Assembly: GCF_006364615.1 (NCBI RefSeq)
Contig: NZ_CP040986.1
Location: forward strand, 124,001-188,000
Direction: 5' to 3'
DNA length: 64,000 nucleotides
Origin: Candidatus Methylopumilus rimovensis
GTDB lineage: Bacteria; Pseudomonadota; Gammaproteobacteria; Burkholderiales; Methylophilaceae
Positions 14,522 through 60,121 of this stretch are shown here, one piece after another (position 1 is the stretch's first letter; every line of letters begins with the position of its first letter). The notes under the pieces were generated by a model. That model made no database searches. It was not told the DNA's origin and worked only from the letters and a program-made list of their open reading frames with translations. The position numbers were made by a program, and so were the translations under genes.

Positions 14522-15376
14522 TTATACTATTGAATATAGTCCGAAAGTGACACGATAAATACCATGAATATCTTTAGCATTTTCAACATGCTGATAGCCA
14601 TTTTTTCGAAATAAATCTTTTACAATTTCAGCTTGATTATAACCATGCTCAATCAAAAGCCACGCATCAATATTCAAGTGATTTTTAGCGTTTTCAATAA
14701 TATGCTGTATCGCTTTCATGCCCATAGGCCCTGAGACGAGAGCATCAATGGGCTCATGTTCTAACCCTTTTGATAAATGCGGATCATTTTCTTCCAAATA
14801 AGGCGGATTACTGACGATCACATCAAATTTTTTTTTGATTAAAGCATGAAACCAATCACTTTGTTGCAGAGTGACATTAGATGTCTGATAAAGCGCAAGA
14901 TTCTCTCTTGTATTTTTTAGAGCATCTTCCGATTGATCAATGAGGGTCACTTTTGAAAGCGGTCTTTCAAGCGCTAATGTGATGCCAATAATCCCAGTAC
15001 CACATCCTAAATCGAGTATATTAAATGTATCGCGCGCGTTTATTTTAGAAAGCGCTATTTCAATGAGTATTTCAGTATCCGCTCTTGGAATCAGTACATT
15101 CCGATTGACTTTAAATGTTCTTCCATAAAAAGACCATTCACCTAAAACGTATGGCAGAGGTATGCCAACAATTCTTTTTTCTGTGATGCTTTCAATTTGT
15201 AATTGATCTTCTTCATTAAGCAGCCGATCATTTTCTTGGATGATTTCTTTTTGACTCATCTTTAAAACATATTCCAGAATAAAACGCGCTTCAAGTTTTG
15301 CTTCATCTAGAGAATAAGCAATGTGTTGGTGAAGTTTACTCTCAGTATTTTTTAATACGTCGCGAAGCGTCGCCAC
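14522..15376 (-). CDS. prmC: Release-factor glutamine methyltransferase PrmC
   Basis: PrmC methylates the Gln of the GGQ motif in release factors, improving translation termination. The 284-residue protein has a helical N-terminal domain, the RADTEILIE segment and the SAM-binding motif [13 protein letters not shown]. The [14 protein letters not shown] motif (NPPY contacts the target glutamine) follows, and then LLIEHGYNQ near the end. Length is close to E. coli PrmC (277). It follows prfA, its own substrate, by 3 bases, the normal prfA-prmC pair. Confidence 0.96.
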
Positions 15377-45481: not shown

Positions 45482-46612
45482 ATGAAAAAAAATACCATCC
45501 CATCACTAACCCCTGAATTAAAGGGGATTGAACACTTAGCGAGTGCGGTATTGCTATGTGATGTCGAGGGCCATATTTTGTACATGAATCCATCCGCTGA
45601 AATTTTATTTGGTTTAAGCGCTAAACATATTTATAAGATGTCGCTTGATGAGGTATTTCCATATGCCGATATTTTAAAACTAGCCATCAGCCAAGCTTTA
45701 AATAATGACACCCCTTATCGTGAACATGAATTTTTGATTACCACATTAAAGCATCAATCATTTTCTGTGACATGTACCATCACCCCAATTCAAAGCGATT
45801 CGATTCGTTATATTCTTGAATTCCAACAGATGGATCAGCAATTAAGAATCGCAAAAGAAGAGCGTATGTTGATTCAGCAACAAGCCAACTCTGAATTGAT
45901 TCGAAATTTAGCGCACGAAATTAGAAATCCATTAGGTGGGTTACGAGGAGCCGCTCAGCTTCTAGAGCATGAGTTACCTGATCCTTCACTTAAAGAATAC
46001 ACACAAGTGATTATTAAAGAAGCCGATCGCTTGCAGTCATTGATGGATCGACTACTCGTGCCTCATCAAAAACCTAAATATGAGCCTACAAATATCCATG
46101 AAGTATTAGAGCGCGTTCGAAGTTTATTGTTAGCTGAATCGCCTGATGAAATAAAAATTCAACGTGATTACGATACGAGCCTGCCTGACATTATTGGCGA
46201 TCGCGAAAAATTAATCCAAGCAGTACTTAATATTGCGCGTAATGCAGTCCAAGCGATGCATGAAAAACAACAACATGGTCTCATTATTTTTAAAACGCGT
46301 GCTGAACGGCAAATCATGCTTGCTAAGAAACGCTATCGCGTCGGTATTAAACTCGACATTATCGATAATGGGCCAGGCATACCGCCAGGTATTCGCGACA
46401 AAATATTCTATCCGCTCGTCTCCGGTCGTGAAGGTGGGTCTGGTCTCGGCTTATCATTAGCGCAAACTTATGTGAGTCAACATCAAGGGATGATTGAATG
46501 TAAGAGCGAACCCGGACAAACGATCTTCACGATTTTATTGCCGATCAAAGATCTAGATACAAAAGAAATTCCTGTTCATAACAACCAAGAATCACAAGGA
46601 TCTTCACTATGA
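45482..46612 (+). CDS. glnL: Nitrogen-regulation sensor kinase NtrB
   Basis: NtrB (GlnL) phosphorylates NtrC when nitrogen is limiting and, with PII, dephosphorylates it when nitrogen is ample. The 376-residue cytoplasmic protein has an N-terminal PAS domain (about 15-125), and a dimerisation/H-box LAHEIRNPLGGLRGAAQLL with His145. The N box (NIARNAVQAMHE), G1 box (DNGPGIPPGIRDKIFYPLVSGREGGSGLGLSLA) and the final ATP-lid strand follow. No membrane segment is present, as expected. The start is an ATG at 45482 and the stop overlaps ntrC by 4 bases. Confidence 0.97.
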   Translation: MKKNTIPSLTPELKGIEHLASAVLLCDVEGHILYMNPSAEILFGLSAKHIYKMSLDEVFPYADILKLAISQALNNDTPYREHEFLITTLKHQSFSVTCTITPIQSDSIRYILEFQQMDQQLRIAKEERMLIQQQANSELIRNLAHEIRNPLGGLRGAAQLLEHELPDPSLKEYTQVIIKEADRLQSLMDRLLVPHQKPKYEPTNIHEVLERVRSLLLAESPDEIKIQRDYDTSLPDIIGDREKLIQAVLNIARNAVQAMHEKQQHGLIIFKTRAERQIMLAKKRYRVGIKLDIIDNGPGIPPGIRDKIFYPLVSGREGGSGLGLSLAQTYVSQHQGMIECKSEPGQTIFTILLPIKDLDTKEIPVHNNQESQGSSL

Positions 46613-47997
46613 AAGCTATTTGGATTATTGATGATGATAAATCTATTCGCTGGGTATTTGAAAAAGCGCTTGCACGTACCGATTTAAATTTTAAAACTTT
46701 TAGCTCAATTAAAGATGCACTGCAGGCGATTAAAGATGAAGAGCCACAAGTGATTGTGAGTGACATTCGAATGTCACAAGGTTCAGGTTTGGAACTTCTT
46801 CAAGTGATTAAAGAAAAATATGCGCATATTCCTGTCATCATTATGACGGCTTATTCTGATTTAGAAAGCGCAGTCGCAGCTTTTCAAGGTGGTGCTTTTG
46901 AATACTTAGCTAAGCCTTTTGATGTGGATCAAGCGATTGAAATTATTCATCGTGCAATTGATGAATCTCTAAAACAAAGCACCCAAGAAGTTTCTCTTGA
47001 AAATACGACTGAGATGATTGGACATGCCCCCTCCATGCAAGAAGTTTTTCGTGCGATCGGGCGTCTTAGTCGCTCTCATGCGACTGTGCTGATTAACGGC
47101 GAGTCAGGCAGCGGCAAAGAACTTGTTGCTAGTGCTCTTCATAAACATTCACCTCGTGCTGATAAACCTTTTATTGCGATTAATACAGCAGCGATTCCAA
47201 AAGATTTATTAGAGTCAGAATTATTTGGTCATGAGCGCGGAGCTTTTACTGGGGCTCAGGCTTTGCGTAAAGGTCGTTTTGAACAAGCTGATGGTGGCAC
47301 ATTGTTTTTAGATGAAATTGGTGATATGCCAGCCGACCTTCAGACAAGGCTTTTGCGTGTTTTAAGTGATGGTCAATTTTATCGTGTAGGTGGGCATAGC
47401 CCGATCAAGGTCAATGTACGTGTGATTGCAGCTACCCATCAAGACATGGAAGAGCGCGTTAAAGCAGGCCTCTTTCGCGAAGATTTATTTCATCGACTTA
47501 ATGTGATTCGTTTACATTTGCCAGCATTACGTGAGCGCGCAGAAGACATTCCAGATTTAGCTCGTCACTTTTTACAACAAAGCGCACAGCAATTAGGTGT
47601 AGAAACAAAAATTTTATCTGAAGAGACTTTAAATTATCTATCTCATCTTCATTGGAGCGGTAACGTTCGCCAACTTGAGAACGTCTGCCATTGGTTGACT
47701 GTCATGGCACCTGGACAAAATATTGACATTGCTGATTTGCCACCTGAACTCAAAAATAATGATATGCACAAAGAAATCTCTTCCGACTGGAAAGATACAT
47801 TAAAGCAAGAAGTGCAAATGGCCTTAAATAAAAATCAGAAAGATATTTTGACTCAATTAAATCAAACTTTCGAAAAAATTCTTATTGAAGAAGCGCTTAA
47901 CTTCACAAAAGGTAGACGTATTGAAGCTGCTGAAATTTTAGGTTTGGGAAGAAATACCTTAACCCGAAAAGTTAAAGAATTAAAAATAGAAAAATGA
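46609..47997 (+). CDS. glnG: Nitrogen-regulation response regulator NtrC
   Basis: NtrC (GlnG) is the sigma-54 activator of nitrogen genes. The 462-residue protein has a receiver domain (phospho-site Asp52 in VIVSDIRM; YLAKPFD with the conserved Lys) and a central AAA+ domain with Walker A GESGSGKE near 164. GAFTGA in GHERGAFTGAQ contacts sigma-54, and GGTLFLDEIGDMP is Walker B. The C-terminal Fis-type helix-turn-helix contains AAEILGLGRNTLTRKVKEL. Paired recognition sites lie upstream of glnA and another upstream of ntrB. A decayed copy of a protein very like its C-terminus is found at 59311-59527. Confidence 0.98.
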   Translation: MKAIWIIDDDKSIRWVFEKALARTDLNFKTFSSIKDALQAIKDEEPQVIVSDIRMSQGSGLELLQVIKEKYAHIPVIIMTAYSDLESAVAAFQGGAFEYLAKPFDVDQAIEIIHRAIDESLKQSTQEVSLENTTEMIGHAPSMQEVFRAIGRLSRSHATVLINGESGSGKELVASALHKHSPRADKPFIAINTAAIPKDLLESELFGHERGAFTGAQALRKGRFEQADGGTLFLDEIGDMPADLQTRLLRVLSDGQFYRVGGHSPIKVNVRVIAATHQDMEERVKAGLFREDLFHRLNVIRLHLPALRERAEDIPDLARHFLQQSAQQLGVETKILSEETLNYLSHLHWSGNVRQLENVCHWLTVMAPGQNIDIADLPPELKNNDMHKEISSDWKDTLKQEVQMALNKNQKDILTQLNQTFEKILIEEALNFTKGRRIEAAEILGLGRNTLTRKVKELKIEK

Positions 47998-57374: not shown

Positions 57375-58016
57375 GTGACACAACTTAAAATCTTTGAAAT
57401 TTTTTATTCACTACAAGGTGAATCTTCTCGTATGGGATTACCTACGATATTTATTCGCTTAAGTGGGTGTCCGATGCGCTGCCATTATTGTGATACAGCT
57501 TACGCTTTTCAAGGTGGATCCATGATGGACATCGAGGACATCATGGTATCCATCAAAAAATATGACACGCGCTATGTCACAGTCACAGGAGGTGAACCGC
57601 TGGTGCAAAAAGAAGTGCTTAAGCTTCTTAAGACTTTAGCTGATAGTAATTATGAAGTGTCGATTGAAACTGGTGGTGGACTGTCTATTAAAGAAGTTGA
57701 TCCTCGCATTAAAATTATTTTAGATATCAAAACCCCGGAGTCAGGTGAAGAGAAAAAAAATCACTGGGAAAATTTAGATATCATTGATTCAAAAGATGAA
57801 ATTAAATTTGTACTTTGCAGTCGTGAAGATTATGACTGGGCTAAAAAAATACTTGATCAATATAAACTCACAGAAAAATGTAGTGTCTTATTTTCTCCTG
57901 TGTATCAAAAACTCAATGCCACTGATTTAGGAAATTGGATTTTGAAAGATCAGCTCCATGTGCGTATGCAAATTCAATTACATAAATTACTCTGGGGAGA
58001 AAAACCTGGTGTCTAA
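57375..58016 (+). CDS. queE: 7-carboxy-7-deazaguanine synthase QueE
   Basis: QueE is a radical-SAM enzyme that contracts carboxy-tetrahydropterin to 7-carboxy-7-deazaguanine in queuosine synthesis. The 213-residue protein with a GTG start shows the family start [28 protein letters not shown]. The iron-sulfur motif [10 protein letters not shown] (C-x3-C-x2-C) and [14 protein letters not shown] follow. The C-terminal part matches the usual QueE length (about 210-225). It overlaps queC by 8 bases. queE-queC after cpoB is a standard order in Betaproteobacteria. Confidence 0.96.
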
Positions 58017-58677
58017 GGCAGTCGTGCTTTTATCAGGGGGTCTTGATTCGGCAACCACGTTAGCCATTGCGAAAAATGAAGGTTACGAATGTTATGCTTT
58101 GAGTATCAATTATCACCAGCGCCATATTGCGGAACTCGAAGCTGCTAAGAAAATTGCTCAGCAGTTTAAAGTGAAAGATCATAGAACGGTTGAGATGGAT
58201 TTAAGTTGGATGCTCACTTCAGCGCTTACTAATCCTGATTTAAAAGTACCAACCGAATTAAGTTCTCATATCCCGATTACTTATGTGCCCGCGCGAAATA
58301 CTTTAATGCTCAGTTTGGCTCTCGGTTGGGCAGAAGTCATCGGTGCGCATGATATTTTTATAGGGGTCAATGCCGTGGATTATTCAGGTTACCCTGATTG
58401 CAGACTCGAATATATTGAGCAATTTCAGAAAATGGCTAACTTGGCGACCAAATCAGCTGTAGAAGGTCAAAATATCCAACTTCACACGCCGTTGATTCAT
58501 CTATCTAAAGAAGCCATTATTCTTCAGGGTATGAAATTAGGCGTAGATTACGGTTTCACTGTTTCATGTTATCAGGCTGATAAAGATGGCCAGGCTTGTG
58601 GTGTTTGTGATTCTTGTCGTTTAAGGCAACATGGCTTTAAAGCGGCTGGGATGGATGACCCCACCTCTTACCAATAA
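58009..58677 (+). CDS. queC: 7-cyano-7-deazaguanine synthase QueC
   Basis: QueC makes preQ0 from 7-carboxy-7-deazaguanine, ammonia and ATP. I place the start at the GTG 58009, 8 bases inside queE and just after a GGGGAGA ribosome-binding sequence. The product is then 222 residues and begins V(M)[18 protein letters not shown]; an upstream ATG at 57958 adds 17 unconserved residues. Motifs are the PP-loop [47 protein letters not shown] and the zinc site CYQ......[10 protein letters not shown]. Confidence 0.96.
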
Positions 58678-58704
58678 ACCAAAAGAGACTTTAAATTTTT
58701 CTTT

Positions 58705-58732
58705 TTGTAAGTAACTCAAAAAGATGTAAAAT
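58705..58732 (+). promoter_or_regulatory. Proposed promoter of the pagL-like gene, leaderless transcript
   Basis: TTGTAA (58705-58710) and TAAAAT (58727-58732) are 16 bases apart. Start of transcription about 7 bases later falls at or next to the ATG at 58739, and no Shine-Dalgarno sequence is present, so the mRNA would be leaderless. The GTAAAATTCCGC context resembles GTAAAATCCGC before rpsP. Confidence 0.45.
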
Positions 58733-58738
58733 TCCGCT

Positions 58739-59308
58739 ATGAAAAAACAAATATTACTTTCCTGCCTTTCCCTATATTTAGCCCCCCATTTATTGTGTGC
58801 TCAAGAGAGCAATGGATTAGGTATTGATAGCGTCTCAATTGAAGCTGGAAGTTCGTTTAGCGATAAAGATAAAGATACAAATATGGGACGATTGGGCGTT
58901 CAGTGGAACTGGAATGAACCATTATATAAAAACAATAGTATTGTTTTAAAAGGATATTGGGATGCAACCGTTGGCTATTGGCATACAGAAGATTCAGCTG
59001 GTACGCATAGCGTTGGTGACTTTGGTATTACTCCTGTTTTAAGACTTCAGGCGAATGGGTCAGAAAAATTTGTGCCTTATGTGGAGCTCGGCATAGGAGC
59101 CCATTATTTGACAGAAAAAACTATTACTCAAAATAAACAATTTAGTACAAATTTTCAATTTGGGGATCATATAGCTGCTGGTATTAAATTTGGCGAGCAT
59201 GATGCATTTGCTATTGCTTATAGACTTCAGCATCTCTCCAATGCTGGAATAGATCATCCTAACCCTGGTATAAACTTCCATCAAATACGTCTTGAATATA
59301 ATTTTTAA
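58739..59308 (+). CDS. pagL: PagL-like lipid A 3-O-deacylase (acyloxyacyl hydrolase family)
   Basis: PagL removes the 3-O-acyl chain from lipid A in the outer membrane. The 189-residue protein has a signal peptide cleaved near LCA-QES and alternating strands of an 8-stranded barrel ending in IRLEYNF. The active-site region reads QHLSNAGIDHPNPGIN: His165 and Ser167 correspond to PagL His126 and Ser128, while the position of catalytic Glu140 is Asn179. The SNAGI..PN.GI framework is otherwise well kept. The family call is firm, but activity needs testing because of that change. It stands alone after queC and before a decayed gene. Confidence 0.85.
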   Translation: MKKQILLSCLSLYLAPHLLCAQESNGLGIDSVSIEAGSSFSDKDKDTNMGRLGVQWNWNEPLYKNNSIVLKGYWDATVGYWHTEDSAGTHSVGDFGITPVLRLQANGSEKFVPYVELGIGAHYLTEKTITQNKQFSTNFQFGDHIAAGIKFGEHDAFAIAYRLQHLSNAGIDHPNPGINFHQIRLEYNF

Positions 59309-59310
59309 AG

Positions 59311-59527
59311 CTAATCATTTCTTAATTTTTTGATTTTATTCTCTAAGGTTCTGTTTCCTAAGCCTAATTTATCTGCTGACTCTAACTGCCTCAACTTCTG
59401 AGCAATTTAGAGTTTTTTAACGTAAGGCTTTTTCAAAAGGTTAATTTAAGTCAGTGAATGACGCTTTTTCGATTTTATTTAAAGCTAGTCTTGCTTCGGC
59501 AAAGTAATTTTGCTTGCCAAACATGCC
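59311..59527 (-). pseudogene. Decayed C-terminal remnant of an NtrC-family regulator
   Basis: Reading the complement of 59527-59311 gives FAEARLALNKIEKASFTDLN, a TAA, PFEKALR, a TAA, KTLNCSEVEAV, a frame change, then SADKLGLGNRTLENKIKKL and RND-stop. This aligns with residues 405-458 of the intact NtrC in this window (ALNKNQKDILTQLNQTFEK, then ALNFTKG and AAEILGLGRNTLTRKVKEL). The first 27 positions align without gaps with about 14 identities. The two internal TAA codons stand where NtrC has Gln (CAA) and Glu (GAA), each one substitution away. The segment keeps a Fis-type helix-turn-helix but no start, ATPase or receiver part. It overlaps the rpsP promoter region. Confidence 0.75.
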
Positions 59528-59543
59528 AAAAATAGCGTAAAAT
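59514..59543 (+). promoter_or_regulatory. Proposed promoter of the rpsP operon
   Basis: TTGCCA (59514-59519) and TAAAAT (59538-59543) are separated by 18 bases, with the start point expected near 59550, about 40 bases before the rpsP ATG. The assignment is by consensus and position. Confidence 0.5.
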
Positions 59544-59590
59544 CCGCCCCTTTCTTAAGAAAATTTTTAACTAATTGAAGAGTGTAAATT

Positions 59591-60121
59591 ATGGTAATTA
59601 TTCGACTTTCTAGAGGCGGTTCAAAAAAGACCCCTTTTTACAATGTAGTAGTGGCAGATTCAAGAAATCGCCGCGATGGACGCTTTATTGAGCGTATTGG
59701 TTTTTATAATCCAATGGCTAAAATTGGCACCGAAGCACTTCGTATTGATAACGAACGTGTGACACATTGGAAAGGCCATGGCGCTCTTCTTTCAGATTCA
59801 GTGAATCGCTTAGTGAAGTTACATTTAAAAGGCCCAGAAGCAATTGTGGCTTTAAAGAAAAAAGATGCAGACAAAGTAGAAGCTAGAAAAGCTAAAGAAG
59901 TAGCTAAAAAAGCTGAAGAATTAAAAGCAGCGATGGACGCTAAAGAAGCAGAAGAAAAAGCGAAAGCAGCAGAGGCAGAAGCCGCAGCTGCAGCAGCGCC
60001 TGCTCCAGAAGCAGCACCGGTTGAGGCAGCAGCAGAAGCAGCAGCTCCTGAGGCAACGCCAGAAGCAGCTCCAGAAGCAGCTCCAGCTGAGGCGACTGAA
60101 CCACCAGCTGAAAGCGCTTAA
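59591..60121 (+). CDS. rpsP: Ribosomal protein S16 with long Ala/Glu/Pro-rich tail
   Basis: S16 is an assembly protein of the 30S subunit. Residues 1-82 form a normal S16 ([41 protein letters not shown], then [10 protein letters not shown]). Instead of stopping there, the product continues to 176 residues with a charged helix rich in Lys, Ala and Glu (about 95-135) and a low-complexity Ala/Pro/Glu tail made of repeated EAAPEAAP-type units. The coding DNA of the tail is itself repetitive and more GC-rich. S16 extensions are known in some bacteria, but one of about 90 residues doubles the protein. It heads rpsP-rimM-trmD-rplS. Confidence 0.96.

Follow-up and report, generated by a model that had tools for sequence, protein, structure and literature searches.

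A decayed ntrC tail on a small pagL-bearing insert between queC and rpsP in Candidatus Methylopumilus rimovensis

Homologous recombination has been named among the processes at work in 'Ca. Methylopumilus' and its marine OM43 relatives (PMC10872708). The words pagL, ntrC and rpsP are absent from the main text of that study, pagL is not mentioned in the main text of a further Methylophilaceae paper, and a literature search for similar scars returned nothing relevant. The locus described here combines relatives of two known proteins, the lipid A 3-O-deacylase PagL (PF09411) and NtrC (NR-I), whose C-terminal region bears a Fis-type DNA-binding domain (PF02954, HTH_8). The window, by which we mean the whole 64,000-nucleotide stretch that was analysed, spans positions 124001-188000 of the 1.28 Mb single-contig genome of Candidatus Methylopumilus rimovensis (G000). 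Between queC and rpsP, it contains the tail of an ntrC gene, old and without function, which is carried on a small, mobile part of the accessory genome; as gene flux, the case is ordinary in kind. The features on which the argument rests are:

46609..47997, plus strand: intact ntrC of the same genome, the relative of the fragment (PF00158, PF00072, PF02954)
57432..58671: queE-queC part of a tract of discordant ancestry (gene trees, identity profile, diagnostic sites, AU tests)
58707..59500: insert of 794 bp between queC and rpsP, holding pagL and the ntrC tail (spacing comparison; absent from ten congeners)
58739..59308, plus strand: intact pagL, predicted lipid A 3-O-deacylase family (PF09411, E 9e-38; dN/dS 0.12-0.27 among carriers)
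59311..59497, minus strand: dead ntrC-like fragment, interrupted by two in-frame stops and a frame shift; it corresponds to the final ~62 codons of an ntrC of the genus's own type and is truncated on its 5' side at the insert edge
59514..59543, plus strand: promoter-like site of rpsP, TTGCCA-18-TAAAAT; it lies beyond the insert and is conserved in genomes with and without it

A broken NtrC C-terminus beside pagL

The fragment is a real pseudogene remnant of the C-terminus of NtrC. When residues 380-462 of NtrC were run against the window with tblastn, the true ntrC was the top match, followed by two frames of the fragment at 59511-59320 of the minus strand (E 1.2e-4 and 3.1e-4), and all other matches in the window had E values of about 1 or more (best 1.1). 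The first frame translates as FAEARLALNKIEKASFTDLN*PFEKALR*KTLNCS and the second, past the frame change, as ESADKLGLGNRTLENKIKKLRND*, with about 15 of 33 and about 11 of 21 identities to NtrC, respectively, as counted by eye; in the alignment, the two stops face a Gln codon and a Glu codon of NtrC. Stops and a frame change break the reading frame in all three available alleles, which come from G000 and two further genomes (G009 and L052, see below). Each allele was compared with 2000 dinucleotide-preserving shuffles of itself, none of which reached the real score against NtrC: 30.8 bits in G000 (shuffle maximum 21.9), 28.9 in G009 (20.8) and 32.0 in L052 (26.2). The HTH_8 Pfam model also lists the locus in a whole-genome search at 13.3 bits, which is below its cut-off. 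The broken minus-strand C-terminus that an earlier note had read from the letters, together with its stops at Gln and Glu codons, its single frame change and the tblastn match which that note proposed as a check, is thus borne out, at a length of ~62 codons. The extent given there, to 59527, and the overlap of the remnant with the rpsP promoter were mistaken: the NtrC-like part ends at 59497, and position 59527 falls inside the promoter-like site, whose hexamers TTGCCA (59514-59519) and TAAAAT (59538-59543) lie outside the insert.

Comparisons at the DNA level point to the genus's own kind of ntrC, and not a different activator, as the source. Identity of the fragment to most own-genus ntrC 3' ends is 58-66% (lowest pairs 56.5%), versus 41-49% for those of another Methylophilaceae genus. 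In local alignments, the raw alleles score 31-50 against own-genus ntrC; the maximum is 24.5 against sister genera, streamlined AT-rich ones among them, and 25 against shuffled sequence. Scores of 36.0 and 31.0 in one comparison column belong to L044, which is G009's own ntrC in a second copy. Own-genus ntrC genes were the best matches both for a composite query of our own making and for the raw alleles. In a PF00158 search, no genome of the genus has more than one NtrC-class activator with a full score, the remaining matches being weak and in proteins of other lengths, and the fragment is not closer to another activator family, as a separate non-ntrC sigma-54 activator would be.

The insert, its carriers and its decay

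The distance between queC and rpsP is 913 bp in G000 and 928 bp in G009 as opposed to 118-119 bp in ten other congeners (G002, G003, G005, G006, G007, G010, G011, G013, G014 and G015); the comparison covers the 13 members of the genus that have an rpsP match, and in one of them (G004) the contig ends before queC. All bases of the empty site are present in the carriers, and no repeats or mobile-element signature were seen by eye at the insert edges. G009 and L052 also display the fragment, likewise broken, between pagL and rpsP, and in all three carriers the pagL stop and the fragment stop are arranged tail to tail, 2 bp apart (in G000, pagL ends at 59308 and the fragment stop codon occupies 59311-59313 of the minus strand). 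The L052 contig (JAPLVL010000043.1) is titled Candidatus Berkelbacteria, and holds a queC-pagL-rpsP segment nearly identical to that of the genus; since its queC protein and that of G000 share 95% identity, we take it to be probably a misbinned congener, a binning error in a public genome. NtrC similarity starts at 59497, three bases from the right edge of the insert (59500), and because it stops at this edge the fragment most likely arrived already truncated.

By contrast with the broken fragment, pagL is intact and, judging from its dN/dS, under purifying selection. It scores 129.9 bits against PF09411 (cut-off 23), with nearly the whole family model covered, and was not found elsewhere in the genus outside the carriers, several genus genomes being incomplete. 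Its dS values are 0.36 for G000-G009, 0.31 for G000-L052 and 0.11 for G009-L052. The fragment diverges at a comparable pace (0.40, 0.47 and 0.07 per site for the same pairs), with insertions and deletions also present, and its changes fall evenly on the three codon positions (22, 20 and 16). Because of this evenness and the closeness to pagL dS, set against a pagL dN/dS of 0.12-0.27, the fragment drifts while pagL is kept; the pattern is that of neutral decay, with no sign of constraint since the alleles diverged, in a short sequence known from three alleles. A TAA at a Gln (CAA) codon of ntrC is common to all three, which means that the fragment had already been inactivated when they split. 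As a separate observation, a promoter-like site matching the consensus, TTGTAA-16-TAAAAT at 58704-58740, ends ~6 bp upstream of the start codon of pagL; given this spacing, the pagL message could be leaderless.

These data bear on how the remnant had originally been interpreted, namely as the recent loss of a second sigma-54 activator or of a partial ntrC duplicate. The partial duplicate fits, as own-genus ntrC DNA matches far better than that of other genera. A second activator lost at this site does not: ten congeners have an empty site, no genome of the genus shows a second full-score NtrC-class activator, and the fragment breaks off where the 794-bp insert does. Nor is the loss recent: one stop codon is common to all three alleles, and about 0.40-0.47 substitutions per site separate that of G000 from the other two. 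An intact minus-strand regulator beside pagL or rpsP, which was to be looked for in relatives, was not found at the queC-rpsP site in any relative's genome searched.

Discordant ancestry and the origin of the insert

Gene trees place ntrC, tolB, cpoB, rimM and trmD of G000 closest to G002 and G003, whereas queE and queC group with G005, G009, G011, G013, G015 and L052, and AU tests reject the swapped groupings both ways (3.5e-6 and 3e-57). Diagnostic sites set a sharp left breakpoint for this tract at 57413-57432 and a right end somewhere in 58671-59722, and the tract probably includes the insert. Since the history of queE-queC differs from that of the flanking genes, a segment that starts at 57.4 kb and reaches into the insert has probably been swapped, through homologous recombination, with the clade to which the other carriers belong. 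Identity between G000 and G009 is higher in the tract (86-92%) than in upstream genes (76-90%), which favours import into G000; the queE-queC of G002 may have been replaced as well. The insert is missing from most members of the clade regarded as the source of the tract.

The account that best explains these observations, and that we hold to be probably correct, is an insertion of the 794-bp pagL and genus-type ntrC tail followed by recombinational transfer into G000. In an ancestor of the carriers, DNA carrying pagL and, in convergent orientation, the final ~62 codons of a genus-type ntrC would have inserted between queC and rpsP, most likely from a relative in which, we infer, pagL stood tail to tail with ntrC. 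The ntrC tail would be a scar of the donor junction, a passenger that was never a whole gene at this site; without function there it would have decayed freely while selection kept pagL. G000 would then probably have received queE-queC-pagL-fragment by homologous recombination through the flanking genes, and strains appear to swap the insert by ordinary recombination.

In favour of this account, tail-to-tail neighbours do occur at the ntrC 3' end: a small lipoprotein gene sits there with the same 2-bp gap in G003 and G005. Against it, searches of 187 family genomes, of the sequence flanking 80 pagL loci from a species-wide collection and of viral contigs turned up no donor in which pagL adjoins ntrC, and the lack of a repeat or mobile-element signature at the insert edges, and of the insert in most of the presumed source clade, also counts against it; the sole strong NtrC-like neighbour among the 80 loci (L075) is 2.4 kb away on the same strand. 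The gap after ntrC holds no traces of pagL and is occupied by a CBS-domain gene. The lipoprotein gene is also present beside ntrC in G013 and was not detected there in G000, G002, G007 and G015. A rearrangement in G013 (L046, L047) has left ntrC and rpsP on opposite strands about 25 kb apart, as against the same strand and about 12 kb in other members.

Alternatively, the interval from pagL to rpsP could once have held a complete extra ntrC in tail-to-tail orientation with pagL, a copy that an old deletion cut down to its tail before the carriers diverged. Loss down to a tail does occur in the genus, because G009 keeps beside its ntrC the last 25 codons of the lipoprotein gene that is whole in G003, G005 and G013 (L044, about 14650-14740; compare L045, 14015-14464, and L050, 12788-13255). 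However, such a deletion would need to have one end precisely at the former edge of the insert and leave the empty-site sequence complete, and a full ntrC copy at this site occurs in no genome searched; we consider this scenario unlikely, if still credible. A retained function of the fragment in the pagL-rpsP spacer, for example as a buffer, a terminator or a small RNA, could explain its presence directly after pagL in all three carriers, yet its divergence is close to that of the synonymous sites of pagL, it has gained insertions and deletions, and it shows neither a terminator-like site nor an Rfam match to a structured RNA, making this very improbable. Slightly more doubtful even than this is the speculation that pagL and the tail form a small cassette spreading repeatedly at the queC-rpsP site via recombination in the flanking genes, with the tail retained as a separator of pagL transcription from the essential rpsP promoter. 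Lastly, an NtrC resemblance due to chance, or to another HTH_8 protein such as Fis, is hardly credible: the shuffles argue against chance in every allele, and Fis, though matching the helix-turn-helix of the G000 allele (26.6 bits), scores below NtrC, has no match in the G009 and L052 alleles and leaves unexplained the match to the NtrC linker before the helix-turn-helix.

Comparison with known systems

The locus shows that readable scars of gene traffic persist even in a compact, streamlined genome, and that a scar such as this ntrC tail can give a clue to what once lay next to a gene that has moved. It also shows that regulator loss need not be the reason when part of a gene lies next to a housekeeping gene. 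Relative to NtrC (NR-I), the fragment retains, in its joined frames, a recognisable linker and the Fis-type helix-turn-helix over ~62 residues; unlike NtrC, it has two stops and a frame shift, lacks the receiver and AAA+ domains, and can yield no protein. The pagL of the insert is a predicted PagL family member, and its placement between queC and rpsP is confined to the three carriers, other Methylophilaceae with pagL having it elsewhere. As in the flexible gene content described for Methylophilaceae (PMC10872708), content varies at a fixed place and homologous recombination is involved, but here the variable element is a single small insert and not an island.
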